DNA of 49,061 nucleotides, taken from the NCBI GenBank assembly GCA_027078415.1, contig JALWYX010000048.1, forward strand, positions 1 through 49,061, in the 5' to 3' direction. The notes beneath the pieces are model-generated. The model was given only the letters and a program-made list of their open reading frames with translations. It did not search any database and was not told where the DNA came from. Within the stretch, counting starts at the first letter, position 1, and each line of letters starts with the position of its first letter. Both the position numbers and the translations under genes were made by a program. Source of the stretch: Thermoanaerobaculia bacterium. GTDB taxonomy: Bacteria; Acidobacteriota; Thermoanaerobaculia; JALWYX01. Positions 10,506 to 30,800 of this stretch are shown here, in pieces.

Positions 10506-10757
10506 ATGAAGACAAAAAAAGTTCCTCTCGATCGTATAGACGAAGATCTGCAAGAAAAAATTAGAACCCTAGCCCAGTTGGCTCTCTTGCCAGAACCTAA
10601 ACCTCCTAAAAATATCCTCTATCCAATTAGAATCTTTGTTTACAAAGCGTTTTTGAAATGGTATTTTAGACCCATAATAGCAAGACAGGAAAAGTTTAAT
10701 AAAGTTGTTGTTTCAACGTTGAACGATCTAGTTAAAAAATTATCCAGTGAAACCTAG
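10506..10757 (+). CDS. Small hypothetical protein at start of glycan cluster
   Basis: This is an 83-residue basic protein with no recognised domain. It has an acidic/basic N-terminal helix, a proline-rich hinge (PEPKPPK at about 30-36), an amphipathic aromatic stretch (YPIRIFVYKAFLKWYF at about 41-56) that could sit on a membrane surface, and a C-terminal helix. There is no signal peptide. The ATG abuts the apgM stop and the 3' end overlaps the glycosyltransferase gene by 11 bp, which argues that it is a real, co-translated gene. It might help anchor a glycosyltransferase complex at the membrane, but that is a guess from position and shape. Confidence 0.7.
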   Translation: MKTKKVPLDRIDEDLQEKIRTLAQLALLPEPKPPKNILYPIRIFVYKAFLKWYFRPIIARQEKFNKVVVSTLNDLVKKLSSET

Positions 10758-11796
10758 AGTACTCCTACTTAACTCTAAAGTCCCTTTTGCTTACGGGGGA
10801 GCCGAACTTCTGGTAAGTAGACTCTCTAAAGAATTGAAAAATAGAGGCTTAGAAGTAGATCTCCTGGAAATTCCCTGGAACTATAAGACGAGGACAGATA
10901 TACTTCTAAACATTATACATTGGAGAACTATTTTTATAGAGGAAGTAGCTGACCGAAAAGTGGACGTAGTTATACCTACAAGGTTTCCCTCTTACATCGC
11001 TAGACATCCTAACAAAGTGGTGTGGCTAATACACCAACTAAGACAAGCTTACGATCTTAAAGGAACAGACTATTCCGATATAGGTTCTCTAAAAGAAGAT
11101 AAAAAATTGCTGGAAATAATAAGAACAGCAGATTACAAGGCTTTGTCAGAAGCTAGAGAACTGTTTGCTATCTCGAGAAACGTTGCAAACAGACTTGAGA
11201 AGTTCAATAATTTAAAAGCTAAAGTGTTAATTCCTCCTCCCCCACTTGAGGGGGAATACTTTAACTCTCCTTCAAAAGGGTACATTTTGTCTGTAGGCCG
11301 CCTAAATAAGCTAAAAAGATTCGATCTACTTATAAAAGCTATGGCAAAAGTTAAAACGAAAGTGAAATGTATTATAGCTGGAGAAGGTGAAGAGAAGGAA
11401 AATCTGTTACGCTTAATAGATAAGTATCAATTAAAAGATAAGGTTTTTCTAGCAGGATTTGTTTCTCAGGAGGAGCTGTTGAAGTTATATGCTGAATCAC
11501 TAGCTGTTTTTTACGCTCCTTTCGACGAAGATCTAGGTTTTGTAGCGATAGAGGCCTTCAAATCTGCAAAACCTGTAATAACTACACAAGATTCTGGAGG
11601 AGTCCTAGAGTTCGTAAAAGAAGGTATCAACGGTTTTGTAGTGAAATCTACACCTCTTTCTATAGCAAAAGCTATAGATAAAGTAGCTGAAGATGAAGAG
11701 TTAGCAGTTGTATTGGGTAGAGAAGGAAATAAGAAAGTAAAAAATATAAATTGGGATAACGTTATATCAGAACTTCTCAGTAGTGGATTAGGATGA
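10747..11796 (+). CDS. Glycosyltransferase, GT4-like (GT-B fold)
   Basis: The 349-residue protein starts at GTG 10747 inside the end of the preceding gene. PFAYGGAELLVSRLSKEL at residues 14-31 is the acceptor-side glycine-rich loop of GT4 enzymes. YILSVGRLNKLKRFDLLIKA near 178 is the start of the nucleotide-sugar domain, and FDEDLGFVAIEAFKSAKPVI near 260 holds the EX7E-type donor-binding motif. It is therefore a cytosolic retaining glycosyltransferase building a surface glycan; donor and acceptor are unknown. The stop overlaps the next glycosyltransferase in an ATGA at 11793-11796. Confidence 0.9.
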   Translation: MKPRVLLLNSKVPFAYGGAELLVSRLSKELKNRGLEVDLLEIPWNYKTRTDILLNIIHWRTIFIEEVADRKVDVVIPTRFPSYIARHPNKVVWLIHQLRQAYDLKGTDYSDIGSLKEDKKLLEIIRTADYKALSEARELFAISRNVANRLEKFNNLKAKVLIPPPPLEGEYFNSPSKGYILSVGRLNKLKRFDLLIKAMAKVKTKVKCIIAGEGEEKENLLRLIDKYQLKDKVFLAGFVSQEELLKLYAESLAVFYAPFDEDLGFVAIEAFKSAKPVITTQDSGGVLEFVKEGINGFVVKSTPLSIAKAIDKVAEDEELAVVLGREGNKKVKNINWDNVISELLSSGLG

Positions 11797-13070
11797 AAAT
11801 AGGATGGGCTTCATGTTTCCTACCAGTTAGAAGTGGTTTGGCTTATTACTCAAGTAAGTTTGCCTCGTTTCTGAACGAATTGGGTACAGTTTTAAATATA
11901 GATACTCAATCTGTAACTTTTAGTAAAGCAATAGCTGTAGCTGAAAAATGCGATATTGTTTTCTATAACGTTGGAAATGACCCCCAAACAAATGCAAATA
12001 CCTATAAACTTGCGTTAAAAATACCAGGAATACCTATACTACACGAGTTTGTTTTGACCGATTTGGTTCTTTCTATGTGTACAAATTACAACGATACGGT
12101 TGCTAGTTTGTGGTATTCAGCTGGCGAACTTGGTAAAAGAGTGGCTCGTGAATATCTAGAAACAGGAACGATAGATAAATTTATATTTCCTCTATTCGAA
12201 AGGGTAGTCGATAGCAATCTCGCTACCGTAGTACACTCTGAGTACGCTAAAAAAAGAATTTTACTAAGTAGACCCAATTGCAAAGTGGCAGTCGTTCCTC
12301 ACCCGGTACTTAAGACCTGCCCAACCAAAAGCGAGGAAAATTTGATAGGTATTTTCGGTTGGATCTCACCTTATAAGAAGGTAGAACTGGCACTAGAAGC
12401 TTTTCAACAAGTAAAAGATAAGATAGGAGCAAAACTTATCCTAGCAGGAGAAATAGTATCTAAAAGTTGGTTTTTGTCTTTAAAAGAGAAAGGGCTTTTG
12501 AAAGATGTAACGATCACAGGATGGATCGATGATGATACTTTTAACAAATTGTTGTCTAAGGTCAAAGTCGGAATAGTATTACGGCACCCCACAGGTGGAG
12601 AAGCCTCAGGAATAACTCTAGAACTTATGAGTAGAGGAAAAGTAGTAATAGTTAACGATAGTGGATGGTTTTCAGAACTACCTAGAGACGTTGTAGTGCA
12701 TATAGATCCAGGGGAAGGAGAACTGGAAAGACTTAAAGGAGCTATCTGCACTCTTTTATCAAACAGGAAACTCATTTGCTCTATAGGGACTAACGCGTTA
12801 GATTACGTAAGGGAGTTCCATTCGGTATCGAAGTGGGTTAAAGGAATTGAAAAGGCTATCTCTCTCGCTATAGAGAAAAGAACTCCTTTTACACCTACTC
12901 CTCCTCTTGTACATTTTACTGAAGATGATCTTTTACCAAAACTTGCCAGAGAATTGGGAAAAAGCGTAGTAGATTTGGGGATAGGGAACGACAGCGAGGT
13001 AATAGACGCTTTAGTTGAAACGGTAAACTGGTTTAATGGTTCTGTAGAAAATAGTAACCCTGGATTTTAG
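11793..13070 (+). CDS. Glycosyltransferase, GT4-like (GT-B fold)
   Basis: The 425-residue protein opens with WASCFLPVRSGLAYYSSKF, a GT-B N-terminal motif. It continues with LIGIFGWISPYKKVELALEAF near 180 (shown by GIFGWISPYKKVELALEAF) and a donor-site segment PTGGEASGITLELMSRGKV near 268, in which Glu in SGITLE fits the EX7E position. The last 60 residues form an unusual tail after a proline hinge (TPFTPTPP) containing SVVDLGIGNDSEVIDALVE, which resembles a truncated Rossmann strand. It is coupled to the upstream transferase by a 4-bp overlap and followed 16 bp later by a membrane-anchored protein. The sugar specificity is unknown. Confidence 0.85.
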   Translation: MKIGWASCFLPVRSGLAYYSSKFASFLNELGTVLNIDTQSVTFSKAIAVAEKCDIVFYNVGNDPQTNANTYKLALKIPGIPILHEFVLTDLVLSMCTNYNDTVASLWYSAGELGKRVAREYLETGTIDKFIFPLFERVVDSNLATVVHSEYAKKRILLSRPNCKVAVVPHPVLKTCPTKSEENLIGIFGWISPYKKVELALEAFQQVKDKIGAKLILAGEIVSKSWFLSLKEKGLLKDVTITGWIDDDTFNKLLSKVKVGIVLRHPTGGEASGITLELMSRGKVVIVNDSGWFSELPRDVVVHIDPGEGELERLKGAICTLLSNRKLICSIGTNALDYVREFHSVSKWVKGIEKAISLAIEKRTPFTPTPPLVHFTEDDLLPKLARELGKSVVDLGIGNDSEVIDALVETVNWFNGSVENSNPGF

Positions 13071-13086
13071 AAAGCTGCAGAAGGCT

Positions 13087-14010
13087 ATGAAAAAAATAGT
13101 ATTAAATAACAAGCTTATCTTTTTGTTTACATTAGTATCTGTTTCCTTGTTGATAGGAGGCCACTATATTTTCTGGTATCATCCTAGGTGGCATAAGGGA
13201 GTAGTTGAAATAGTTACCGATAAAGAGATTTTTGTGCTGATTAACTATCCACACCAGAACTTAAGGATGTTAGAACGTTTTATAGATATAGAAAGGTTGC
13301 TTTCGGTAATATCCACTCTATCGTTCAATAGAGATGTGGTGGTAGTCAAATATCCCACATCTGCCGCTGCTGAATGGGTAGCCTTCTATTATGAAGGTAG
13401 CGAAAAAGGAATAGTTCTTAAATTTTTCCCTGTAATAGCGTTGATATTGAGAGCAGCTGGCTTCTTGAGTGATTCAGAAATTCTTTCTAAAGGTTGGCAA
13501 GGATTTAGATGGGATTACAAGATAGATAATGGCCCATCGATTCACGGTAGAAATAGAACTGTAAAAATAAAATCGTTTTTTCCCGTTATAGGAATAGCTA
13601 AATTGGGAGAAAATAGTTATTTGGTAGATAAACGGGGAAAAGAACTTGTATTTGTTCCTATAGGTAAAGAGATTGAAGAGAGAAATATTAGGAAATTGTG
13701 CGGCTTTGTGGAACTCGATGGTAAGGTGGAGGTTGCTATAGGAAATGACGGAAAGGTTTCGGTGAAAATAAATACGGAAGAGCAGATAACAGATTTGCGA
13801 AATATGTTTGCAAATAACGATTACTTTTCTATTTTCGTTGCACCGCCGCTATGTAAAAGATTTACCTTTAAAAAAGATTCTAAAGCGACCGATTGGTACC
13901 TGGTTCTTTTAGAAGACGTTTTCCTATCTCTCAAAGGTGTCGATTATTTCTTCCTTTATAAGCGTGGAAACTTGTGGTACAGTAGGATCGGGTTGAGGGA
14001 TGAAGAATAA
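13087..14010 (+). CDS. Membrane-anchored protein of unknown function in glycan cluster
   Basis: This 307-residue protein has one hydrophobic N-terminal segment (about residues 8-27, FLFTLVSVSLLIGGHYIFWY), best read as a signal anchor, followed by a soluble domain that would face the periplasm. The soluble part is rich in alternating hydrophobic strands and Tyr/Phe, ending YFFLYKRGNLWYSRIGLR. I recognise no catalytic motif. It overlaps the methyltransferase-like gene by 11 bp and sits among glycosyltransferases. A role in export or periplasmic handling of the glycan is reasonable but unproven. Confidence 0.75.
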   Translation: MKKIVLNNKLIFLFTLVSVSLLIGGHYIFWYHPRWHKGVVEIVTDKEIFVLINYPHQNLRMLERFIDIERLLSVISTLSFNRDVVVVKYPTSAAAEWVAFYYEGSEKGIVLKFFPVIALILRAAGFLSDSEILSKGWQGFRWDYKIDNGPSIHGRNRTVKIKSFFPVIGIAKLGENSYLVDKRGKELVFVPIGKEIEERNIRKLCGFVELDGKVEVAIGNDGKVSVKINTEEQITDLRNMFANNDYFSIFVAPPLCKRFTFKKDSKATDWYLVLLEDVFLSLKGVDYFFLYKRGNLWYSRIGLRDEE

Positions 14011-14950
14011 ACGAGGGATACCTTGGAGTAAATGGTGGATAGAAAAATATTTAGAGGATAAAACTATTCCTCGATTTCAAGAGTATTCGCTTGAAGGAAA
14101 CAACTTTATGGGATGGCTCGATCATCCAGTTGTAGTCAATGAATATCTACCTTCTCAAATAGCGTGGGAGAAGGGGTGGGAAATTCTTGAATTTCCCCAT
14201 TATTCTCGTAATATAACCTCGAGGTACCCTTTCCCCTATAACGGCAAGTGGCTTATATGTGTAAATGACGGTTTTACTGAGTTTGCAGCACAAGATTTTG
14301 CTAGGGCTGGATCTGTAACTGCTGTGAATTCAAACATGTGGTTGCTCAGCTATTCTAAACGTAAGGTTAAGCTTGATAAAAGACGAGACATTTTCAACTT
14401 TGTCGCTATAAAACAAGAGGATCTGTTCCTTCTAGAGGGAAGATATGACGTTATTTTTCTTAAAATGGTCCTTAATAGGATAGCAAAGTTGGAACATATA
14501 GTAGAACTTATTAAGAAACGCCTTAATAAGGGTGGATATCTTATAGTTGACGATTATATAGGTCCTTCACGTTTTCAATATACCGATAAGGCTATGGCGT
14601 TGGTAGATAAATTGCTCCTATATTTGCCAGAAAGGTTGAAAAAGTTGAGAGATGGAACTCTAAAGGAGTGTTATTTACGTTATTCTCCAGAAGTGTTTGC
14701 TAGGATAGCACCAAATATTGCCGTTAGATCGGATGAAATTGAAAAGATATTGACTTCAAATTTTAAGTTAGTTGACAAATTTCCTTATGGAGGAACTTTG
14801 TTAGATCCTCTGTTGGCTAATATAGTGCATAACTTTGTAACTGCTGATGATTTGATGCTGCTGCGTATGTTATGTAACTTTGAAAAGACTCTTATAGATG
14901 AAGGTGTGATAGAGTCAAACTTTGCCGTTTTTGTTTTAATTAATGAGTAG
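14000..14950 (+). CDS. Class I methyltransferase-like protein with altered SAM motif
   Basis: The 316-residue protein keeps the order of a Rossmann SAM-dependent methyltransferase. A strand-loop-helix LICVNDGFTEFAAQDFARAG near 90-109 stands where motif I lies, followed by SVTAVNSN (motif II), FNFVAIKQEDLFLLEGRYDV (motif III) and YDVIFLKMVLNRIAKLEHIV, then LNKGGYLIVDDYIG (motif post-III). The usual GxGxG of motif I is missing; the loop reads VNDGFTE. It may bind SAM weakly or have lost activity. It overlaps both neighbours (11 bp and 8 bp) and lies within the glycan cluster, where methyltransferases usually cap or decorate sugar chains. Confidence 0.7.
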   Translation: MKNKRGIPWSKWWIEKYLEDKTIPRFQEYSLEGNNFMGWLDHPVVVNEYLPSQIAWEKGWEILEFPHYSRNITSRYPFPYNGKWLICVNDGFTEFAAQDFARAGSVTAVNSNMWLLSYSKRKVKLDKRRDIFNFVAIKQEDLFLLEGRYDVIFLKMVLNRIAKLEHIVELIKKRLNKGGYLIVDDYIGPSRFQYTDKAMALVDKLLLYLPERLKKLRDGTLKECYLRYSPEVFARIAPNIAVRSDEIEKILTSNFKLVDKFPYGGTLLDPLLANIVHNFVTADDLMLLRMLCNFEKTLIDEGVIESNFAVFVLINE

Positions 14951-16982
14951 ATTTCCTGTGACAGTTATAGTCCCTATAGGTGGAACACATCGAGTATTGG
15001 AAAGTGCTATATACTCATTGAGAAAACATACAAAAATTCCCCCTAATAGAATTATTTTTCTTTTAGATGGTATAAGTTGCTTCGACGTTTACTCCACTAT
15101 AAAGAACTTTTTTGGTAACAGCTGTGATGTTTTCTTCTTTGCAGAGAAAAAAGGTTATCTTAAAGTAGTAAACGATGCTTTTAGATGCGTTGATTCAGAT
15201 CTTGTTCTTTTAAACTCCGATTGTGTGGTTACCGAAGGTTGGCTAGATAAACTTCAGGAAACCGCTTATTCTTCCTCTTCTGTAGCTACTGTTACCCCTC
15301 TCTCCAACAATGCTACTCTGGCTTCTGTTCCTGTAAGTTTTGCTAATAACTTCATACCTAGAGGCTACGATCTGGATAGTTTTGCTGCGTTGATTAACTC
15401 TTTGGGAGGTTGTCCAGTTGAAGTTCCAACGGGAGTTGGAATGTGCATCTACATAAGAAAAGATAAGTTCCTGTTAATAGGCGGTTTTGACGAAATATTC
15501 TCACCTGGATATGGCGAAGAGGACGACTTTTGCCAAGCTGCAAGAAAGCTGGGTTTTGTAAACCTACTTGATACTAGAACTTTTGTTTGGCATGAAGGTG
15601 GAGCTACTTTCAAACACTGGATCAAGACTCTTCTTTTAAAGAGAAATAGACTGATTTTCCAAATACGTTATCCCTATTACTATAAGGAGATAGCTGAACT
15701 AAAAAAAAACGATTGTATAAGTGATATAAGAAAAAGTATTATACGTTCTTTGGGAGTATTAAAAAGTAAAAGAGATAAAAAGGTGCTTTTTGTTGTCCAT
15801 GGATGGCCTCCATTTAACTATGGAGGGACAGAATACGTAGCTAGTGAGTTAGCTTATAAAATTCGCAATGAATACGAGACAACTGTAGTAGCAAGGATCA
15901 CTAGAGAAGAAAAACCTTACTGCGAAAGATTTGAATATTACGATAAAGGTGTAAGAGTAATTCTCTTAGTAAACAATTTTTTAAATAGAAACCCTTTAAC
16001 TAGAAATTCTATCTATTCTGCCAAGTTGTCTTACACTTTAACCGATATCATTAACAGTAAGCCTGATATAGTCCACGTTCATCATATTATGGGGTTAGCG
16101 TTTAACTTTCTAATAGATTTAAAAAAGAGAGGTAGTAAATTGGTATTGCAGTTGAACGACTGGTTTTTGCTGTGTCAAAGATCCAATATGTGGGATCCTC
16201 TAAGGGGAATATGTGATGGGCCTGGATTGATCAAATGTTCCAAATGCTTCCCATTCTCAAAATTTAAACTTTTGCCTCCTTTGTTGGTGTATATTAAATT
16301 GTTCTATGCTAGAAAAATTCTCAAGTTGTCTGACCGTATAGTTTCCAACTCTTATTTCCTAGTTGATAGCTTTAGAAAATTCGGTTTGCTGGATGAAGAT
16401 CTTGAGCGTAAGATTGATGTTTTACCCTTGGGTGTAAAAAGCTGCAGAAAGGTTTCAAGAAATAAGGTGAGATTACCTTTACATGTAGGGGTAATAGCTA
16501 GTAATTTTCCCCATAAGGGCTTAGGAATAGCACTTAAAGCTGCAGATTTTTTCACTTCCGATCAGTTGATTTTACATATTTGGGGTTCCAGGGGTGAAAA
16601 TAGAAAAAATGTAATATGGCATGGTAGTTTCCACGAGAAGGATAAAGATAAAGTGTTTTCATCTATAGATATACTCGTGGTACCTTCTCTAGGATATGAA
16701 TCTTTCGGAATTGTAGTATCGGAAGCTTTCTCTTATGGTATTCCCGTTATTGCCTCACGAAGAGGAGCGTTAGTTGAAAGGTTTAAGGAAGGTGAAGGGG
16801 GACTTTTCTTTACACCTGGGGATTTCAAAGAATTAGCAGCCATATTAGAGTCTTTTGTAAGAGAACCAACTATGTTGGAAAATCTTAAAAGATCAATAAA
16901 ACCACCCCGCAGTTTTAGCTCCTACACGGAAAGTATATTATCTCTATATGAATCTCTCACAAATTGCTCGGTTGATAGCTAG
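14943..16982 (+). CDS. Two-domain glycosyltransferase (GT2 fused to GT4)
   Basis: The 679-residue polypeptide carries two glycosyltransferases of different folds. Residues 1-230 are a GT2/GT-A domain: VTVIVPIGGTHRVLESAIYS at the start, LLNSDCVVTEGWLDKL near 88-103 (the NSD takes the DxD place), PTGVGMCIYIRKD and GYGEEDDFCQAARKLGF with the ED catalytic pair. From about residue 279, KVLFVVHGWPPFNYGGTEYV begins a GT4/GT-B domain ending with PSLGYESFGIVVSEAFSYG near 580. The enzyme could add two successive sugars. It has no membrane segment. The ATG at 14943 overlaps the preceding stop by 8 bp, and the next gene starts within its last 35 bp. Confidence 0.9.
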   Translation: MSRFPVTVIVPIGGTHRVLESAIYSLRKHTKIPPNRIIFLLDGISCFDVYSTIKNFFGNSCDVFFFAEKKGYLKVVNDAFRCVDSDLVLLNSDCVVTEGWLDKLQETAYSSSSVATVTPLSNNATLASVPVSFANNFIPRGYDLDSFAALINSLGGCPVEVPTGVGMCIYIRKDKFLLIGGFDEIFSPGYGEEDDFCQAARKLGFVNLLDTRTFVWHEGGATFKHWIKTLLLKRNRLIFQIRYPYYYKEIAELKKNDCISDIRKSIIRSLGVLKSKRDKKVLFVVHGWPPFNYGGTEYVASELAYKIRNEYETTVVARITREEKPYCERFEYYDKGVRVILLVNNFLNRNPLTRNSIYSAKLSYTLTDIINSKPDIVHVHHIMGLAFNFLIDLKKRGSKLVLQLNDWFLLCQRSNMWDPLRGICDGPGLIKCSKCFPFSKFKLLPPLLVYIKLFYARKILKLSDRIVSNSYFLVDSFRKFGLLDEDLERKIDVLPLGVKSCRKVSRNKVRLPLHVGVIASNFPHKGLGIALKAADFFTSDQLILHIWGSRGENRKNVIWHGSFHEKDKDKVFSSIDILVVPSLGYESFGIVVSEAFSYGIPVIASRRGALVERFKEGEGGLFFTPGDFKELAAILESFVREPTMLENLKRSIKPPRSFSSYTESILSLYESLTNCSVDS

Positions 16983-18186
16983 AGAAGGTATACCTGCTAC
17001 TTTTAGATTGCTCACCTACAGAATTCTCCTATTATACCGATGGCGTTTTGTACCTTTTAACGTTGATAAAGTAAAGATTTTAAATGTGTCATCTCTGCCT
17101 CCTCTTGGTTGGGCAGGTGGTAGTGCTTTACAAATGCTTTGGAGACTGCAGGAAGAAAGTAAAATAAGAGAGGTGTTTCTACTTTTTCCTTATAAAAGTG
17201 TATGGTACCTAGCAAAAGTTAAAGGAAGTATATTGTACCTAAAAAAAGTAGGCGAGTATGAAATAAAATATTTTGTAGACGGTTTTTCTTCTATTATCAA
17301 AAAGTTATCTCCGGAGATTGTCCATTTTGAAAATCTGGCACTTTTCGATTACAACGAAATTTTTGATATAACAAACACTACCTGCAAGGTTTTTTTATCT
17401 CTTCTAGATTTTGCATTTTTTTGTCCTAGGTATAATCTTTTGCCTAAAGGCAGTCTCTTTTTTTGTAACTATGAGAAGCGATATGAAGTTTGTTCTAAAT
17501 GTTTAGATGGCGATTTTAACTCTTTGGATATAGCTATATACCGAGATGTTATGAAAAAGTTATTGGCTAAGGTTGAGGGTGTTATTGTACCTTCACATTT
17601 TCTTTTAAACAAAATTAAAGAGTTGGGATATGAAGGTAAGTTTTTTATAATTGAACTTCCAACGTATTGTTACAAAACTCCCATCTCTTCTAGTTCATTT
17701 CCCCCTCGAAAAATTGCACTACTAGGAGGTGGATTGAGAAGTAAAGGAGGTATTGTAGCAAAAGAAATAGTTGAAAGGTTACCTCAATACGAATGGTATA
17801 TATTTGGTGGATACGGTAATTACGATTTTGGTAATAAAGTAAATTATATTGGATTCTATTCCCCAGGTTCTCTTAGTAAGCTTCTTATTAAGTACAGGAT
17901 AGATGTATCTGTTATTCCGTCTACCTGGCCAGAGACCTATTCACTTCTTTTGAGCGAATCTATCTTGGCTGGAGTTCCTGTAATAACGTTTGATATAGGA
18001 GCATTTAGAGAACGAGTTAGATATCCCTGGGGAATCAAAGTTGACCTTAGAAAGGGTGTTGGAGGTATTGTTGAGGCTCTGGAGAGTTGTAAGAGAAATT
18101 TTTTGTGGGTGCCAGATTACTTAAAAGAACGTATCAAAAATCCTACCGAGGTAGCTGATCGGATGGTTGATGTGTATTATATATGA
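16948..18186 (+). CDS. Glycosyltransferase, GT4-like
   Basis: The 412-residue protein has a GT-B layout: PPLGWAGGSALQMLWRLQ near 51-68 is the N-terminal glycine-rich loop, IALLGGGLRSKGGIVAKEIV near 260 begins the donor domain, and PSTWPETYSLLLSESILAG near 325 is the donor-site motif, with Glu residues at EX7E spacing. Two Cys pairs in the middle (FFCNYEKRYEVCSKC) echo similar Cys in the C-terminal half of the preceding protein (CSKC), so the two may be related subfamilies. The ATG at 16948 overlaps the preceding gene by 35 bp; a slightly later start is possible. The specificity is unknown. Confidence 0.85.
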   Translation: MNLSQIARLIAREGIPATFRLLTYRILLLYRWRFVPFNVDKVKILNVSSLPPLGWAGGSALQMLWRLQEESKIREVFLLFPYKSVWYLAKVKGSILYLKKVGEYEIKYFVDGFSSIIKKLSPEIVHFENLALFDYNEIFDITNTTCKVFLSLLDFAFFCPRYNLLPKGSLFFCNYEKRYEVCSKCLDGDFNSLDIAIYRDVMKKLLAKVEGVIVPSHFLLNKIKELGYEGKFFIIELPTYCYKTPISSSSFPPRKIALLGGGLRSKGGIVAKEIVERLPQYEWYIFGGYGNYDFGNKVNYIGFYSPGSLSKLLIKYRIDVSVIPSTWPETYSLLLSESILAGVPVITFDIGAFRERVRYPWGIKVDLRKGVGGIVEALESCKRNFLWVPDYLKERIKNPTEVADRMVDVYYI

Positions 18187-18200
18187 ATAAGGAGAAAGAA

Positions 18201-19430
18201 ATGCACGTGCATGTTATATTTGTCGCACCATATTTTATGGAGATAACATTACGTTTTTTAAGAGGCGTTTTACTTTTGAGAAATGTTGATGTATCTTTGA
18301 TAAGTTGCCAACATGTAGCGGATCTACCTGTGAGTTTTAGAGCCAAGTTGCGTGGTTGGGAAAGGATAAAAAATCCTCTCGCGTATCAAGAGATTCGTGA
18401 CGCTGTTGTGAGACTTGAAAAACATGTTGGGAAAAAATGTTATAGACTGTTAGGAATATTAGAGCATTTGCAAGAGCCTTTAGCAACAGTTAGAGATGAA
18501 CTTGGTATAGAAGGAATGAAAAGAGATGTTGCTCTTAACTTTAGACGTAAAGATATTATGAAAGAGAAACTCCGTAAAGCCGGATTGCCGTGCGCAAAAT
18601 TTCTATTGGCTACTTCGAAAAGCGAGGTTGTTGCTTTTAGTAAATCTGTAGGTTTTCCTATAGTTATAAAACCTCCAGCTGGTGTAGGTACTAGAGCTAC
18701 TTATAGAATTAACGACCATAAAGAGTTATTGGAAATTTGCCAACTTTTCCCTATAAGTAAGGATAAACCGTGGATGTTAGAAGAGTTCATAACAGGTGAC
18801 GAGTACTCTTTTGAAACCGTTACAATAAACGGCAAAAAAGTGTGGTATTCGTGGAGTAGATACTATCCAACACCTCTTGAGGCTATGGAAAAACCTTGGA
18901 TTCAATGGTGTATCTATATTCCTAAAGATATCGATACACAAGAAGTTGCTGATGTAAAAGATGTGGCGTTCAAAGCTTTGGATGTATTAGGTATGGATAC
19001 GGGACTATCTCATATGGAATGGTTTAGAAGGAAAAACGGCTCTGTTGCTATCTCCGAAATAGCTGCTCGTCCTCCAGGAGCTCAAATAACTACCCTTTTG
19101 TATCATGCACATGAATGGGACGTATACCATGAATGGGCTAAACTTATGGTCTTTAGGGAATTTTATATGCCTGAGAGAAAATTCGCAGCTGGAGCTGCAT
19201 TTCTTAGAGGACAAGGAAGAGGTAGAGTAGCGAGAATCCACGGACTCGATAAAGCACAAAGAATGGTTGGTGATCTAGTAGTGGAGGTCAGATTGCCGAA
19301 AATAGGTCAAATTAAATCTGCTAGTTATGAAGGGGAAGGTTACGTAGTTGTTAAACACCCAGATCTTAAAGTGGTAAAAAAGGCACTTTCTATACTAATA
19401 CAAACTCTTAGAGTGGAGATGAGAGAATAA
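18201..19430 (+). CDS. ATP-grasp ligase-like enzyme
   Basis: I choose ATG 18201 (409 residues) over the in-frame ATG 18183 because AAGGAG at 18189-18194 is spaced six bases from 18201. An ATP-grasp fold is clear from about residue 110: FRRKDIMKEKLRKAGLPCAK, then FPIVIKPPAGVGTRATYRI (ATP-binding Lys and glycine loop), WMLEEFITGDEYSFETV, and VAISEIAARPPGAQITT with the Glu and Asn-like metal position. The family joins a carboxylate to an amine or thiol through an acyl-phosphate. Known relatives decorate peptides or sugars, or make dipeptides. In this block it may amidate or aminoacylate a glycan, an inference from position. It is followed by a CDF gene sharing one base (TAATG). Confidence 0.85.
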   Translation: MHVHVIFVAPYFMEITLRFLRGVLLLRNVDVSLISCQHVADLPVSFRAKLRGWERIKNPLAYQEIRDAVVRLEKHVGKKCYRLLGILEHLQEPLATVRDELGIEGMKRDVALNFRRKDIMKEKLRKAGLPCAKFLLATSKSEVVAFSKSVGFPIVIKPPAGVGTRATYRINDHKELLEICQLFPISKDKPWMLEEFITGDEYSFETVTINGKKVWYSWSRYYPTPLEAMEKPWIQWCIYIPKDIDTQEVADVKDVAFKALDVLGMDTGLSHMEWFRRKNGSVAISEIAARPPGAQITTLLYHAHEWDVYHEWAKLMVFREFYMPERKFAAGAAFLRGQGRGRVARIHGLDKAQRMVGDLVVEVRLPKIGQIKSASYEGEGYVVVKHPDLKVVKKALSILIQTLRVEMRE

Positions 19431-20377
19431 TGTCTGGTGCGTGTGGATGCAATAACGTTGTAACTGGTGAAAAAGGTAAAAGAGCTTTGAATATAGCCAT
19501 TGCTATCGGATTAACTTACATGACAATAGAAGTGATCGGGGGTATTGTATCAGGCTCCTTATCTTTGCTTGCAGACGCTGGACATATGTTTTCCGACGTA
19601 GTAGGACTGCTGATGGCTAGAATAGCTATCTACCTTTCGCAGGAGGTAAAAACTGAAAATACTACCTTTGGTTTTAAGAGAATAGAAATAATAGCTGCGT
19701 TTACAAATGCAGTTATAGTGATTGTTGTGGCCTTTAATATATTGTTTAAAGCAGTTTTAAGGTGGATAGAACCTATTCCTATCAAAACAGATATTATGTT
19801 TAGCGTGGGATTGGGAGGGTTGATTGTAAATATCCTTATGATCTCGTTTTTGTGGAGTGTAAAAGATGAATCGCTTAATATAAAAGGGGCATGGCTACAC
19901 GTTTTGTCAGATCTTGTAGGAAGTATACAAGTTATGATAGCTGCAGTTGTATATTACCTATGGGGATTTGTAAAAGCAGATGCTATAGCAGCTGGATTAA
20001 TAGCTTTGCTACTGTTTCAAAGTTCTATAAGACTTATGATAAAAAGTGCAAGGATACTGCTAGAGTCCGCTCCTGCAGGCCTGCAAGTATCCAAAGTTAA
20101 ACGAGCTGTGGAAAATATGGAAGGTGTAGAAGAGGTACACGATCTTCACTTGTGGACAATCAAAGAGGGATTTGATTCTTTAACTGCACATGTTGTAGTT
20201 TCAGAACATTACAAGGGCTCTAGAGATACTCTTGTTGATAGTTTGCGTAAGATGTTGCTGGATAAATTTGGTCTAAGCCATGTTACTATTCAACTTGAAC
20301 CACCTAACGGTTTTGAAGACTGCGTAAAATGTGGTGAAAACTCTGAAACAATTCAAAAAAACAAAGATGAAGGTTAA
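19430..20377 (+). CDS. Cation diffusion facilitator (zinc/divalent metal exporter)
   Basis: The 315-residue protein has six hydrophobic segments and a soluble C-terminal domain of about 95 residues, the CDF layout. The paired metal-site motifs are present: LADAGHMFSD in the second helix (HxxxD) and HVLSDLVGS in the fifth (HxxxD). The His/Asp pairs point to a zinc-type member. A Cys-containing N-terminus (CGC at residues 4-6) and a C-terminal CVKC could add metal contacts. The C-terminal domain ends HVTIQLEP, typical of the ferredoxin-like CDF tail. It starts one base inside the stop of the ATP-grasp gene. It probably exports Zn2+ from the cytosol. Confidence 0.92.
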   Translation: MSGACGCNNVVTGEKGKRALNIAIAIGLTYMTIEVIGGIVSGSLSLLADAGHMFSDVVGLLMARIAIYLSQEVKTENTTFGFKRIEIIAAFTNAVIVIVVAFNILFKAVLRWIEPIPIKTDIMFSVGLGGLIVNILMISFLWSVKDESLNIKGAWLHVLSDLVGSIQVMIAAVVYYLWGFVKADAIAAGLIALLLFQSSIRLMIKSARILLESAPAGLQVSKVKRAVENMEGVEEVHDLHLWTIKEGFDSLTAHVVVSEHYKGSRDTLVDSLRKMLLDKFGLSHVTIQLEPPNGFEDCVKCGENSETIQKNKDEG

Positions 20378-21791
20378 TAGAAAAAAGAGAGTATCAAATG
20401 TAGATTGGTATAAAGTTTCTAAAGATACTGTCAGGGGATGGCTCTTTATTCTGGGTTTTCTAATCTTCGCATTGATGGTAGCCTACTTATACCATAAGTG
20501 GTCGCAGTTTAAACTAAAAAGAGATACTCTTACATTTTTAAATGAAGCAAGGGCGTTAGCTCAGCAGATAGATGTGGAAACACTAAATAGAGAACTTACA
20601 AGAAGATGGAATAAAGCTTGGAAAGAACTGGATTTTGCTAGTTTGGCATTTAATTCAGCCAATTTTGAACAAGCTTATAAGGCGGCACTCTCTAGCAAAA
20701 GACTTTTTATGTCTATACTGGATGAGTATAGAGGAAAAGTTGCTATAGCCTGGTTCTCTAACGTCGAAGGTAAAGTGGAGTATAAACGGGCAAAAGGAAC
20801 CAGTTACATTCCTGCCCGTACTAAAGTCTCTCTCTATCCTGGAGATGTGGTTAGAAGCGGACCTTTAGGATCTGCCGAGATAATGTTTAGGAACGGTACA
20901 CTTTACAAGTTGCGGCCAGGTACTGAATTTATTATAAAAGGTGCAGGTAAAGAGGAAGGAAGTAAAGTGGAATTGGCTTATGGATGGATAGACCTTAATT
21001 CTATAGAAGCAAGTACTAAAGTTAAGGTTCCCGGAATAGTAGCAAAAGTTGAAGAGAACTCCAGAGGCGCAGTTTCCTACAATAAAACAAAGAGAGAAAG
21101 TAGATTTGCAACCTACGAAGGAGAAATGGAGTTGGAATTTGAAAAAAGCGGACGTAAAGAGCGAGTTTCTGATCAACAGATGGTTTTGGTTAATAATGAG
21201 AAAGAAGTAAAAAAGATGGATCTGCCTTCCAGAGTAGAGCTCATGGTGCCACCTAATGGTGTGCTCGTTGATTTGGTACGGGAGAAAAATTTGGTTTTAG
21301 AATGGAAGAAGTTGAAAATGGTTGATCACTACTACGTTCAGATAGCAGATAATTCTCTTTTTGTAGGAACTGTCCTTGAAGATAAAAACAGAAAGAAAAG
21401 TACAGCTAAACTTGCCCTTGAAGGAGAAGGTGACTTCTACTGGAGAGTTGCTGCTGTTAAGGATGGCGTTATGGGTGAGTGGAGTATGCCTTTTCTTTTT
21501 CGTGTAATAGATAGCTCAGTGAGATTTGGTAAAGAGGCTGTAGATAATAAGCCTCCTGAACTTAAGATAGCAAGTATAGAGGCTCACGGAAACATATATA
21601 TAATAAGAGGTATTACTGAACCTGGAGCATCTGTTATGGTAAATAACGAAAATGCAGTTGTAGAAGCTGATGGTAGTTTTGTTAAAACTTTAACGTTACT
21701 TCATCCAGGCAGACAGGATATTGTAATCGTAGCTGTAGATAGTAGTGGAAACCATACTGTGAAAAAGATACCTGTAGTTGCCGATTTTTAG
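20367..21791 (+). CDS. Membrane-anchored FecR-domain protein with Ig-like C-terminus
   Basis: An ATG at 20367 gives 474 residues; an in-frame ATG at 20331 would add 12 and overlap the CDF gene more. A basic N-terminus and one transmembrane helix (about 24-45, GWLFILGFLIFALMVAYLY) are followed by a helical region. Next comes a FecR-type beta domain (YPGDVVRSGPLGSAEIMF and LRPGTEFIIKG near 155-190), a fibronectin-like module around LVLEWKKLKMVDHYYVQIAD, and a last Ig-like module with GITEPGASVMVNNENAVVEA. The bulk lies outside the inner membrane. It sits directly before mreB, so it may be a periplasmic partner of wall synthesis; that link is positional only. Confidence 0.8.
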   Translation: MKVNRKKRVSNVDWYKVSKDTVRGWLFILGFLIFALMVAYLYHKWSQFKLKRDTLTFLNEARALAQQIDVETLNRELTRRWNKAWKELDFASLAFNSANFEQAYKAALSSKRLFMSILDEYRGKVAIAWFSNVEGKVEYKRAKGTSYIPARTKVSLYPGDVVRSGPLGSAEIMFRNGTLYKLRPGTEFIIKGAGKEEGSKVELAYGWIDLNSIEASTKVKVPGIVAKVEENSRGAVSYNKTKRESRFATYEGEMELEFEKSGRKERVSDQQMVLVNNEKEVKKMDLPSRVELMVPPNGVLVDLVREKNLVLEWKKLKMVDHYYVQIADNSLFVGTVLEDKNRKKSTAKLALEGEGDFYWRVAAVKDGVMGEWSMPFLFRVIDSSVRFGKEAVDNKPPELKIASIEAHGNIYIIRGITEPGASVMVNNENAVVEADGSFVKTLTLLHPGRQDIVIVAVDSSGNHTVKKIPVVADF

Positions 21792-27043: not shown

Positions 27044-28472
27044 TATAAAAATCGTCGTCACGCGTAATCCTTTCTATGACCGTATTGGAATAATTGAAGA
27101 CGGAGAAGTAGTTGAATATTTTGAAAACCAAACGTTAAAAACCCCTCTTTCTGAAGGATCTATAATAAAAGCCGCTGTAAAAAAAATACTTCCTTCTACA
27201 GATGCTGTTTTTGTCACTCTGAATGATACAGAGGAAGGTTTTTTACAAGTTAAGGATCTAATTGTAGAAGGTAATTCTGGAAAATCAGCTCTTCCTTACC
27301 TAAAAATAGGAACGCCTCTGCTGGTTCAAATAAAAAAAATAGCTTCTAAGACAAAATCAGCGCGTGTGAGTTGCAAAATAGCACTTCCTGGGAATCTTAC
27401 TGTTCTCTTCCCTTTTAACAAGGGGGTGTGCTTTTCAAAAAGAATAGAGGATGAAAGTGAAAAAACTCGTTTGACAGCTATTGTATCTTCTCTAAAGTTA
27501 CAAAAAGGGGTACTGTTTCGTACTGCAGCTGCTTATGTAAAAGACGAGATAGTTAAAAAAGAACTTGAAAAGCACCTCGATTTGTGGAAATCGATAGAAA
27601 GCAACTTTTCTAAAGCGGAAGTGGGTACAGTTCTACATAGCGATGCCAGTTTCGTTGTAAAAGTTCTACGCGATTGGCTTACTTACGGTGTTAGTCTGGA
27701 GGTTGATAACCTTTCTCAGTACGAAGAAATAAAAGATTTTCTTGAAGAAGTAAGACCAGACCTTACCGAGAATCTTTCTTTTTACAGAGGAAAGGTTAAA
27801 TTGTTCGATCTTTATAAGGTAGAAAGAGAAATAGAAAAAGCTTTGAGAAGCAGAGTTTGGCTTAAATCGGGAGGTAGTATAGTTATTGAAAATACAGAGG
27901 CGCTTGTTGCTATAGATGTTAACTCTTCTTTTTGTAGTACCAAAAGTTCCTTGGAAGAAACGGCATTTAAAGTAAATATAGAAGCAGCAGCTGAGATTGC
28001 TAAACAGATTAGATTACGTAATTTGGGAGGAATAGTAGTTGTGGATTTCCTCAGAATGGATAGTAAAAAGGAAGCTCAAGTTATGGAGTTTTTTAAAAAG
28101 AAATTGAAAAAAGATAGATTGATACAAGAAGTTGTGGGTTTTACCAGGTTTGGATTGGTGGAAATTATACGGAAACGCAAAGGATGCGAACTAAACGAAA
28201 TATTTTTTCAAAATTGCTCCTTTTGTAATGGTATAGGCAAACTATTTAAAGTGGATAAATTATTTTTTAAAACGGTTATTAATGCAATAGAAAACAGCTT
28301 TGGAAATAAGAAGATTTCGATAACGCTGAGTTCAAAGTTGTACGATTTTTATTTGAAAAATAGAGAAGTTATAGATAGATGTTTAACACATGAAGGTATG
28401 TACATAAAATTTCTTTGTGACAACTCTTTTAAATTGGACGACTTTTCTGTATCTATAGATGAGCGAGTATAA
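27021..28472 (+). CDS. rng: Ribonuclease E/G family endoribonuclease
   Basis: This 483-residue enzyme is RNase G-sized and lacks the long C-terminal scaffold of RNase E. The order is an S1-like segment with VFVTLNDTEEGFLQVKDL near 65, the DNase I-like catalytic part with VAIDVNSSF (first Mg-binding Asp) and GGIVVVDFLRMDSKKEAQ (second Asp), then the ITRKR-equivalent EIIRKRKGCEL and a zinc-link CSFCNG. It processes 16S rRNA 5' ends and decays mRNA. RNase G follows mreBCD in Escherichia coli too (with maf between), so the linkage to shape genes is an old one. It overlaps rodA by 23 bp and the kinase gene by 14 bp. Confidence 0.93.
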   Translation: MGSHLPTDIKIVVTRNPFYDRIGIIEDGEVVEYFENQTLKTPLSEGSIIKAAVKKILPSTDAVFVTLNDTEEGFLQVKDLIVEGNSGKSALPYLKIGTPLLVQIKKIASKTKSARVSCKIALPGNLTVLFPFNKGVCFSKRIEDESEKTRLTAIVSSLKLQKGVLFRTAAAYVKDEIVKKELEKHLDLWKSIESNFSKAEVGTVLHSDASFVVKVLRDWLTYGVSLEVDNLSQYEEIKDFLEEVRPDLTENLSFYRGKVKLFDLYKVEREIEKALRSRVWLKSGGSIVIENTEALVAIDVNSSFCSTKSSLEETAFKVNIEAAAEIAKQIRLRNLGGIVVVDFLRMDSKKEAQVMEFFKKKLKKDRLIQEVVGFTRFGLVEIIRKRKGCELNEIFFQNCSFCNGIGKLFKVDKLFFKTVINAIENSFGNKKISITLSSKLYDFYLKNREVIDRCLTHEGMYIKFLCDNSFKLDDFSVSIDERV

Positions 28473-29205
28473 GAGTATCAAGGGGACAAATTGTTTAGGA
28501 AAGATCCATCTTTCCCTAGATAAATACGTAGATGCTTTTTTAGATCCTGCTAATGGGGAAAAAATTTACAAAGGAAGAAACTTAGTTAGACTTCATACTT
28601 TAAATGGAGAGAAAGTAGTGTCTAAATACTACTATCCTTCGGTAAGCGTCAAGTATGGTTATTACTTGAAGAAAGTTAGAGGCAGTTTTGAAACAGCTTT
28701 ACTTATGCGATCTAAAGGGATAGCTACTCCTAAACCTCTTGGATGGTTGTCTTGTAAGAAACGAGGGTTTTGCTTTGTTTATAGGTATATACCGAATGTT
28801 GTAGAACTCAGGTATATTTTAGGTATGATTCACAATTATCTTCATATTCCGTGGAAAGAAACCCCTGAAGAGATAATATGGAGAGTTGCACGTTTTGTTA
28901 GAAATATGCACGACAAAGGTTTTTGGCATCGTGATTTGTCAGGAGGTAATATATTAATCAACAAGACCGAAATATATGTAGTAGATATCTCGAGAGTCAG
29001 AATTAAAAAAGTTTCAGACAACGATAGATTTAGGGATTTGAGTAGACTTCCTATATTTAATAGCTATTTCCAAAAGCTTCTATTGTTCTCTTATAGCTGT
29101 AACAACGGTATCTCTTCTGTATATTCTTATAAGTTCTTTCACTCTTTCTTCCACGGGCGACACGAGGCTAAAAATCTATTAAAGCGACTTAAAAAAGATA
29201 TTTAA
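28459..29205 (+). CDS. Lipopolysaccharide kinase-like protein (WaaP/KdkA type)
   Basis: The 248-residue protein has a small kinase fold: VVSKYYYPSVSVKYGYYLKK supplies the ATP-binding Lys region, RSKGIATPKPLGWLSCKKRG fits the helix-C/strand-4 area of the lipopolysaccharide kinase family, NMHDKGFWHRDLSGGNIL near 149-166 is the catalytic loop (HxDxxxxN, here HRDLSGGN) and VVDISRV is the metal-binding Asp. Relatives phosphorylate LPS core heptose or Kdo. It would act on the inner face of the membrane. It is the last gene of the 20-kb block; its 3' end overlaps the convergent gene by 17 bp. Presence of kdsB nearby supports an LPS substrate. Confidence 0.8.
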   Translation: MSEYKSIKGTNCLGKIHLSLDKYVDAFLDPANGEKIYKGRNLVRLHTLNGEKVVSKYYYPSVSVKYGYYLKKVRGSFETALLMRSKGIATPKPLGWLSCKKRGFCFVYRYIPNVVELRYILGMIHNYLHIPWKETPEEIIWRVARFVRNMHDKGFWHRDLSGGNILINKTEIYVVDISRVRIKKVSDNDRFRDLSRLPIFNSYFQKLLLFSYSCNNGISSVYSYKFFHSFFHGRHEAKNLLKRLKKDI

Positions 29206-30040
29206 ATTTTCTTTTTAGGAATTCTAGAGAAAGAGGTTCATTTTTCCTGCTTATCTTTATTAAGTAAGGTACTACTCTGTCACTATTTTCTTTGTCTACT
29301 ATTCTTTTAGCCATGCGATATAGCCTTGGCTGCCATTCGAGTCTATCCTTCGGGTTTACAGTTGCAGGCATAAGTGTCAAAGGCTTGCTTGTAGATCCGT
29401 AACCTCTTTCCAACATCGAGTAAAAGGTATCTGTCTCTTTTAATTCTTCGCGAAAATCTTTACCTATCTCTTGGTTGACAGCTATATAAACTATATGTCC
29501 GAGCAGATCTACTATCCACGACTCTGCAATTAAAACCCCCATATCTGGTACAACACTGCGCGCTATCTCGAACTTAGAATATATGTCAGATGCTACAATT
29601 CCTCTGCTAGCTTCTCCTCCTCCTTGAATAGATTCTCTTATCCTCAGCTGAGGTAACCAGCCAGCTAGTAATATTTTCCATATTTCTCCAACTATAATAT
29701 GAGGCCTTGCGGGGGATATAACCCATCCTGGAAGAATAGATACAGGAAGACCGTAAGGTAGCGTGGTAACCTCTGTCCAATGGACCGGATCGAGCAATAC
29801 AACCCCAGTTTTTATAATTGTCTTGTTGTAATTCCACTTAGATACCTGACGAGCAAAGGGATCTAACCAGTTAAGCCATATAGAAGCTCTGTTAAGCGTT
29901 CCAGGTTCATACCTGACATTCGCGTAAGTTCCTCTTAAACTTAATAACTGGTCTCTGATCTCATTAATATTACCTTCTTGGGCTCGACTACCTGAGACAA
30001 CAAAAACGATCGTAAGTAAAAATATTAGGTGTTTTTGCAT
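29189..30040 (-). CDS. Secreted protein of unknown function
   Basis: The 283-residue protein has a classical signal peptide (core about 5-17, cleavage near SRA-QE at 18-21). A good Shine-Dalgarno (AAGGGGGA on the minus strand, about 30046-30053) precedes the ATG. The mature part is Trp-rich (ASIWLNWLDPF, VHWTEV, GWVISPARP, ILLAGWLP), a style I associate with some conserved periplasmic or outer-membrane-associated proteins, but I recognise no domain. No Cys is present. It lies alone on its strand between the kinase gene (convergent, 17-bp overlap) and kdsB (divergent, 40 bp away). Confidence 0.8.
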   Translation of the reverse strand: MQKHLIFLLTIVFVVSGSRAQEGNINEIRDQLLSLRGTYANVRYEPGTLNRASIWLNWLDPFARQVSKWNYNKTIIKTGVVLLDPVHWTEVTTLPYGLPVSILPGWVISPARPHIIVGEIWKILLAGWLPQLRIRESIQGGGEASRGIVASDIYSKFEIARSVVPDMGVLIAESWIVDLLGHIVYIAVNQEIGKDFREELKETDTFYSMLERGYGSTSKPLTLMPATVNPKDRLEWQPRLYRMAKRIVDKENSDRVVPYLIKISRKNEPLSLEFLKRKFKYLF

Positions 30041-30070
30041 TTGATATCCCCCTTAAGCAAAAAGTATATA
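30041..30070 (+). promoter_or_regulatory. Putative promoter of kdsB, near-leaderless
   Basis: TTGATA at 30041-30046 and TATATA at 30065-30070 are 18 bp apart. This would start transcription only a few bases before the kdsB ATG at 30081, and there is no Shine-Dalgarno there, so leaderless translation is possible. The same 40 bp carries the ribosome site of the divergent gene. Confidence 0.35.
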
Positions 30071-30080
30071 ATCAAAATGT

Positions 30081-30800
30081 ATGATTTTGGGAGCTATTCC
30101 TGCTAGGTATAATTCTAAAAGACTACCTGCTAAACCTTTAATTAAAATCGATGGTAAGCCCATGGTAATACACGTTTTAGAAAGAGCCTTAGAGTGTAAA
30201 GCTCTTGATGAAGTGATCGTTTTAACGGATCATCTTGAAATAAAGAAAACGGTCGAAGATACAGGAGGAAAAGCGTTCCTTACACCTGCAAATCTCCCTT
30301 CAGGAACAGATAGGGTTGCCTGGTTTGTAAAAAAACATCCACAATATGAAGTAATAGTTAATATTCAAGGGGATGAACCTTTAATAGATCCTCTACTTAT
30401 AGAAAAAGTAGCACTAAAGAGTAAAGATTCCAGTGCTATTGTAACCGCAGCTAGAGAAGTATACTACGACCAAGGGGATGATAGAGTGAAAGTAGTGGTA
30501 GATAAAAAGTGGAGAGCACTCTATTTTAGCAGAGCAGCTATACCTTATAGTAAAGCGAAAAAAAAAGTTAGATATCTGGAGCATATAGGAATATATGGAT
30601 TTAAAAGAGATCTATTGCTAAAATTTGTTTCATTTCCACAAAGCTTCTTGGAAAAAACTGAAAAGTTGGAACAATTACGGGCTCTGGAAAATGGAATACC
30701 TATAGAGATTGTTCTTACTTCCTATAAGTCCATTCCTGTGGATAAAAAAGAGGATATAGAGAAAGTCGTTAAAATTTTGCATGAAAGAAGAAAAATTTGA
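30081..30800 (+). CDS. kdsB: 3-deoxy-manno-octulosonate cytidylyltransferase
   Basis: KdsB makes CMP-Kdo from CTP and Kdo, the activated donor for the inner core of LPS. The 239-residue protein has the nucleotidyltransferase start AIPARYNSKRLPAKPL, the loop LPSGTDRVAW, the metal-binding NIQGDEPLI and the closing YFSRAAIPY and LEHIGIYGFKRDLLLKF segments. The length is close to the usual 245. It is strong evidence for a Gram-negative outer membrane. The ORF continues into the polyprenyl synthase gene with a 20-bp overlap. Confidence 0.96.
   Translation: MILGAIPARYNSKRLPAKPLIKIDGKPMVIHVLERALECKALDEVIVLTDHLEIKKTVEDTGGKAFLTPANLPSGTDRVAWFVKKHPQYEVIVNIQGDEPLIDPLLIEKVALKSKDSSAIVTAAREVYYDQGDDRVKVVVDKKWRALYFSRAAIPYSKAKKKVRYLEHIGIYGFKRDLLLKFVSFPQSFLEKTEKLEQLRALENGIPIEIVLTSYKSIPVDKKEDIEKVVKILHERRKI

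Follow-up and report, generated by a model that had tools for sequence, protein, structure and literature searches.

Does a run of glycosyltransferase genes that ends in a gene for an ATP-grasp ligase encode one pathway or more than one? The question is raised by a block of genes at positions 10506–19430 of a 49,061-nucleotide window from a Thermoanaerobaculia bacterium (Acidobacteriota; assembly GCA_027078415.1, contig JALWYX010000048.1), which is contig C48 of a genome of 1.96 Mb in 80 contigs. The original prediction read the block as an uncharacterised glycan-assembly system in which the ATP-grasp enzyme, here named graspB, acts in the same pathway to give an amidated or aminoacylated sugar. 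This tempting single-pathway assignment is unsupported, and two testable systems take its place. We hold with good confidence that the block is a junction between half of a lipid-linked glycan locus and the displaced graspB of a separate multi-ligase system.

The block consists of eight intact genes on the + strand, and its predicted gene content was borne out: four glycosyltransferase polypeptides with five domains, a membrane-anchored protein, a degenerate methyltransferase, a short amphipathic protein and an ATP-grasp ligase, with no Wzx, Wzy or ABC exporter gene between positions 10506 and 19430. PF00534 (GT4) exceeds its curated cut-off in all four glycosyltransferase polypeptides (GTa to GTd), and GTc has in addition an N-terminal GT2-like domain (E 3e-4, just under its Pfam cut-off). 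GTa, GTc and GTd show an E-x7-E motif; GTb has EASGITLE.

The block lies within a coupled + strand run (8555–29205) that reaches far past both of its ends. Junctions along this run are mostly overlaps or gaps within about 16 bp (largest gap 52 bp), and the run also holds apgM, a CDF transporter gene, the gene of a FecR/Ig-domain protein and mreBCD-PBP2-rodA. Since nearly all junctions are tight and unrelated genes are included, membership of the run is a poor guide to common function, and operon membership was rejected as evidence of it. A promoter scan gave fewer sites than in shuffled sequence, and terminator-like matches fell inside genes.

A conserved glycan module and its second half

The first four genes of the block form a module that recurs in relatives. 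GTb was searched against 149 genomes of the same class, the comparison genomes all lying outside the window's own family and order, and the neighbourhoods of the best matches were read. The module begins with a QxxFN-family amphipathic protein of 83 amino acids (10506..10757, +), followed by GTa (10747..11796, +; PF00534 E 7e-37), GTb (11793..13070, +; PF00534 E 4e-13) and a YPHQNL-family membrane-anchored protein of 307 amino acids (13087..14010, +). The order small protein-GTa-GTb was found in 11 loci (L056, L086, L087, L088, L090-L095, L097), in which homologues of the small protein lie directly upstream of GTa, and a twelfth locus of the same type (L096) is cut by a contig end. The module orthologues of GTa are 44–50% identical, those of GTb, adjoining GTa, about 30%. 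The membrane protein directly follows GTb in L056, L086, L088 and L096; elsewhere in relatives its gene stands near glycosyltransferase genes or near YceD-plsX-fab genes.

Both the YPHQNL and the QxxFN families appear to be uncharacterised. They are conserved but unnamed, and the locus places both beside lipid-linked sugar transferases. The YPHQNL protein carries an N-terminal hydrophobic segment and had no match in Pfam or NCBIfam, Pfam having no model for the family. The family is marked by the motifs GHYxxWYxPR and YPHQNL, and its invariant columns include H26, P33-R34 and P55-H-Q-N-L59. Its profile reached a best E of only 0.08 against solved structures, and a single-sequence structure prediction (predicted local distance difference test, pLDDT, 32) was not used. 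A KW...QQNxFN segment is common to the small proteins and reads RQEKFN in the window copy. A 98-amino-acid paralogue of the latter is encoded on contig C26 of the window genome (G000; L023:5184-5480); between it and graspC, an ATP-grasp paralogue described below, lie genes for a 335-amino-acid saccharopine-dehydrogenase-like protein and a pyruvate kinase.

The initiating phosphotransferase is encoded outside the block. In five relatives' loci (L056, L086, L087, L088, L091) the module is divergently linked to the genes GT365-GT372-GT361-PGT, the last encoding an undecaprenyl-phosphate sugar phosphotransferase (PGT) with Bac_transf and CoA_binding_3 domains. Orthologues of these four genes occur in identical order on contig C78 of the window genome (37–48% identity). 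Because this other half sits on C78 in the same order, the block represents half of a lipid-linked glycan locus that is lineage-specific and has been split. Known Bac_transf phosphotransferases act on undecaprenyl phosphate, and since the linked PGT belongs to the family with that chemistry, the module is most likely part of a pathway initiated on this carrier. Candidate export genes are found elsewhere in the window genome: C34 encodes an ABC-2 exporter pair together with a Wzy_C protein, and C50 a Wzx-type protein. The lack of such genes in the block therefore does not make the pathway exporter-less.

In the mechanism we propose, PGT would start the chain by transferring a sugar phosphate to undecaprenyl phosphate, and the GT4 enzymes (the C78 trio together with GTa and GTb) would extend the glycan, with GTc and GTd perhaps providing local decoration. 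The QxxFN and YPHQNL proteins may tether these enzymes to the membrane or work on its outer face. For export the pathway would rely on genes outside the block, perhaps those of the ABC-2 pair or of the Wzx-like protein. Such a system resembles exopolysaccharide and O-antigen loci of the Bac_transf (WbaP/WcaJ) type in its several GT4 enzymes (four in the block and three on C78) and its Bac_transf/CoA_binding_3 PGT. It differs from them in the block's lack of Wzx, Wzy or an ABC exporter, in the presence of two unnamed families, and in being split over two contigs.

The glycan could also be a membrane glycolipid or a part of lipopolysaccharide (LPS) rather than an exported polysaccharide, and be tied to phospholipid synthesis, as the module or the YPHQNL gene adjoins YceD-plsX-fab genes in several relatives. 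We consider this unlikely, given the undecaprenyl phosphate used by known phosphotransferases like the linked one; moreover, the fab genes belong to a housekeeping locus, and the adjacency may be chance.

The next three genes of the block look like local additions, with no conserved linkage of any of them to the module in the relatives' loci examined. The methyltransferase-like protein (14000..14950, +, 316 amino acids) has weak Pfam matches, and in an alignment with ten homologues the LGCG of their S-adenosylmethionine (SAM) motif I is replaced by ICVNDGFTEF. An active methyltransferase was rejected on this loss, and the protein is probably inactive as such, judged by its sequence. GTc (14943..16982, +) falls outside the conserved module. 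GTd (16948..18186, +; PF00534 E 1e-6) has distant homologues that are unlinked to the module, and a conserved tie of GTd to the module or to the methyltransferase-like gene was searched for and not seen. The prediction of uncharacterised glycan assembly thus holds for the PGT-linked part formed by the small protein, GTa, GTb and the membrane protein; joint conservation of GTc, GTd and the methyltransferase-like gene with it was not found, and it does not hold for the membership of the ATP-grasp enzyme.

graspB and its genomic company

The last gene of the block, graspB (18183..19430, +), encodes an ATP-grasp ligase (PF02222, E 9e-15). In a maximum-likelihood tree it falls inside clade B (support 100/99), separate from the paralogous clades C and A. 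Orthologues were found in 37 of the 148 other genomes of the class, in 11 genomes from other classes of the phylum, and in three contigs labelled Planctomycetota or Deltaproteobacteria/Myxococcota, the last being a lower bound on the distribution beyond the sampled phylum because the related-protein scan of named contigs reaches close relatives only.

When 48 orthologous loci were read and matches to block genes scored at E 1e-10, no block gene was found near graspB in any of them (0/48), on which ground graspB was rejected as a conserved glycan enzyme. Joint conservation of the block genes, set beforehand as the refuting test, hence breaks down at graspB, and its proposed place in a pathway to an amidated or aminoacylated sugar is contradicted. 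Its company is of another kind: the paralogous ATP-grasp graspC is present in 42 of the 48 loci, and a glycogen gene (GlgA, GlgC, glycogen phosphorylase or GH57) in 33. In a first set, glycogen genes accompanied graspB in 20/28 loci as against 0/35 control loci, which were the surroundings of glycosyltransferase and methyltransferase genes from the same class (Fisher's test 2e-10, a value that is overstated since related genomes are not independent). The glycogen-gene pattern persists in contigs from other phyla.

In profile searches graspB matched L-amino-acid ligases first (RizA, 4wd3, E 1e-28; BL00235, 3vot), and RizA and BL00235 also ranked first in Foldseek with a graspB model of moderate confidence (pLDDT 63), with about 16–18% identity in the structural alignments. 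The LAL_C2 domain scored below its curated cut-off (19.9 vs 29.4 bits); for this reason, and given the moderate confidence of the model, graspB is said to resemble the L-amino-acid (dipeptide) ligases, its nearest matches of solved structure by sequence and predicted fold, and is not filed among them. That proximity makes a peptide the likelier product than an amidated sugar. Of the 76 positions that are near-invariant in its family, the protein retains 70, which gives no hint that its role changed once the gene had been relocated.

Several observations weigh against the separation of graspB from the glycan genes. In the window genome graspB overlaps GTd by 4 bp, an arrangement compared with genomes from outside the window's own family and order. 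The pairing with graspC is not absolute, the two genes being apart in three class genomes as well. Among the class genomes, graspB is present in 8 of 12 with the module and in 29 of 136 others (p 0.002). The co-occurrence of ligase and transferases that the original prediction had put forward as a check is therefore real at the level of genomes, but in all eight of these genomes module and graspB are on different contigs. From the families involved, it probably reflects shared ancestry; an indirect functional tie is also possible.

Four points speak for reading the whole block as one pathway, with graspB coupling a sugar acid of the glycan to an amino acid or an amine: the block is contiguous, its genes overlap, most module genomes contain the ligase, and O-antigen and teichuronopeptide products are known to involve linked ligases, according to PMC4431377. 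We regard this as very unlikely in view of the 48 loci, where graspC and glycogen genes take the place of block genes, of the family residues kept in graspB, and of the unrelated genes in the same run. Slimmer still is the chance that graspB has been recruited locally, keeping its ancestral ligase chemistry and also providing the glycan with a peptide or an aminoacyl group, since its long branch in the tree and its separation from graspC in the window genome are offset by the near-invariant positions retained and by the usual partner genes, all of which remain in the genome. For the two-system arrangement favoured here, the position of graspB behind GTd is most simply explained by a rearrangement that brought it into a long run of coupled genes. 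Where conserved clusters are scattered, as in this compact genome, gene neighbours can mislead.

The multi-ligase system

Fuller clusters occur in two loci (L002:1303-11197; L003:1466-13646), where the order GlgA-graspA-S51 peptidase-esterase-graspD-est2-GCS2-CBS-graspC-graspB is found, graspA to graspB being contiguous. In L003 (11215-13646, with graspC) and L160 (8096-10556) graspB is duplicated in tandem. The parts of the system are not adjacent in the window genome, where they are spread over five contigs: graspA, the S51 peptidase, the esterase and graspD on C69, graspC on C26, the GCS2-CBS ligase adjoining GH57 and glycogen phosphorylase genes on C73, an est2-like protein (a weaker match) on C36, and graspB on C48. 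The ATP-grasp genes on C69 and C26 have intact reading frames (406 and 405 amino acids); gene disruption by stops within these matches was considered and rejected, as the stops lie outside the genes. A second graspA-type ATP-grasp gene is found on C62 (L021:5070-7903), right after a molybdopterin-oxidoreductase-like gene with a 4-bp overlap.

Where ATP-grasp and COOH-NH2 ligases are linked, they often form peptide bonds one after another, with products including cyanophycin, peptidoglycan and O-antigen, as stated in PMC4431377. The paralogous ATP-grasps with the GCS2-CBS ligase, S51 peptidase and esterases probably assemble a small peptide-like compound, joining carboxylate to amine step by step (ATP, acyl phosphate, amide); their genes are clustered near glycogen genes in other bacteria and scattered in the small window genome. 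From the combination of four or more ATP-grasps, a GCS2-CBS ligase, an S51 peptidase and an E-set esterase we tentatively infer both a peptide or peptide-decorated product and its tie to glycogen metabolism, a possibility that we ourselves rate as doubtful; such a product might serve, for instance, as a nitrogen reserve stored together with glycogen, or might be a peptide or ester bound to it. If true, either a reserve peptide or a glycogen modification would be a new connection between peptide ligation and carbon storage.

The system appears to be uncharacterised, and no description or product of the ATP-grasp/GCS2/glycogen combination was found in the literature searched, Iyer et al. 2009 lying outside the comparison. 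Three known systems come near it. The L-amino-acid ligases RizA (4wd3), BL00235 (3vot) and BacD (3wo1) are the best profile and fold matches of graspB, which unlike them does not stand alone but is grouped with other ATP-grasps and GCS2. Linked peptide-ligase operons, as described in PMC4431377 (citing Iyer et al. 2009), likewise combine several ATP-grasps and GCS2 in one neighbourhood; to these the graspB system adds an S51 peptidase, two esterases and recurrent glycogen-gene neighbours. The cyanophycin system (ATP-grasp synthetase and S51 cyanophycinase) offers a possible parallel in the proximity of ATP-grasps to an S51-family peptidase and in a conceivable reserve compound, although several separate small ligases and GCS2 would replace the single cyanophycin synthetase. 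The ligase system, which recurs near glycogen genes, spans several classes of a single phylum and is also present in contigs labelled Myxococcota and Planctomycetota.

Two further features of the window lie downstream of the block. The protein encoded directly upstream of mreB (20331-21791) has a membrane segment, a FecR domain and C-terminal Ig-like domains (Glucodextran_B, Big_6). Near the mre genes (28459-30800), a Kdo/WaaP-type kinase-like gene and a KdsB-like cytidylyltransferase gene suggest a Kdo-containing LPS.

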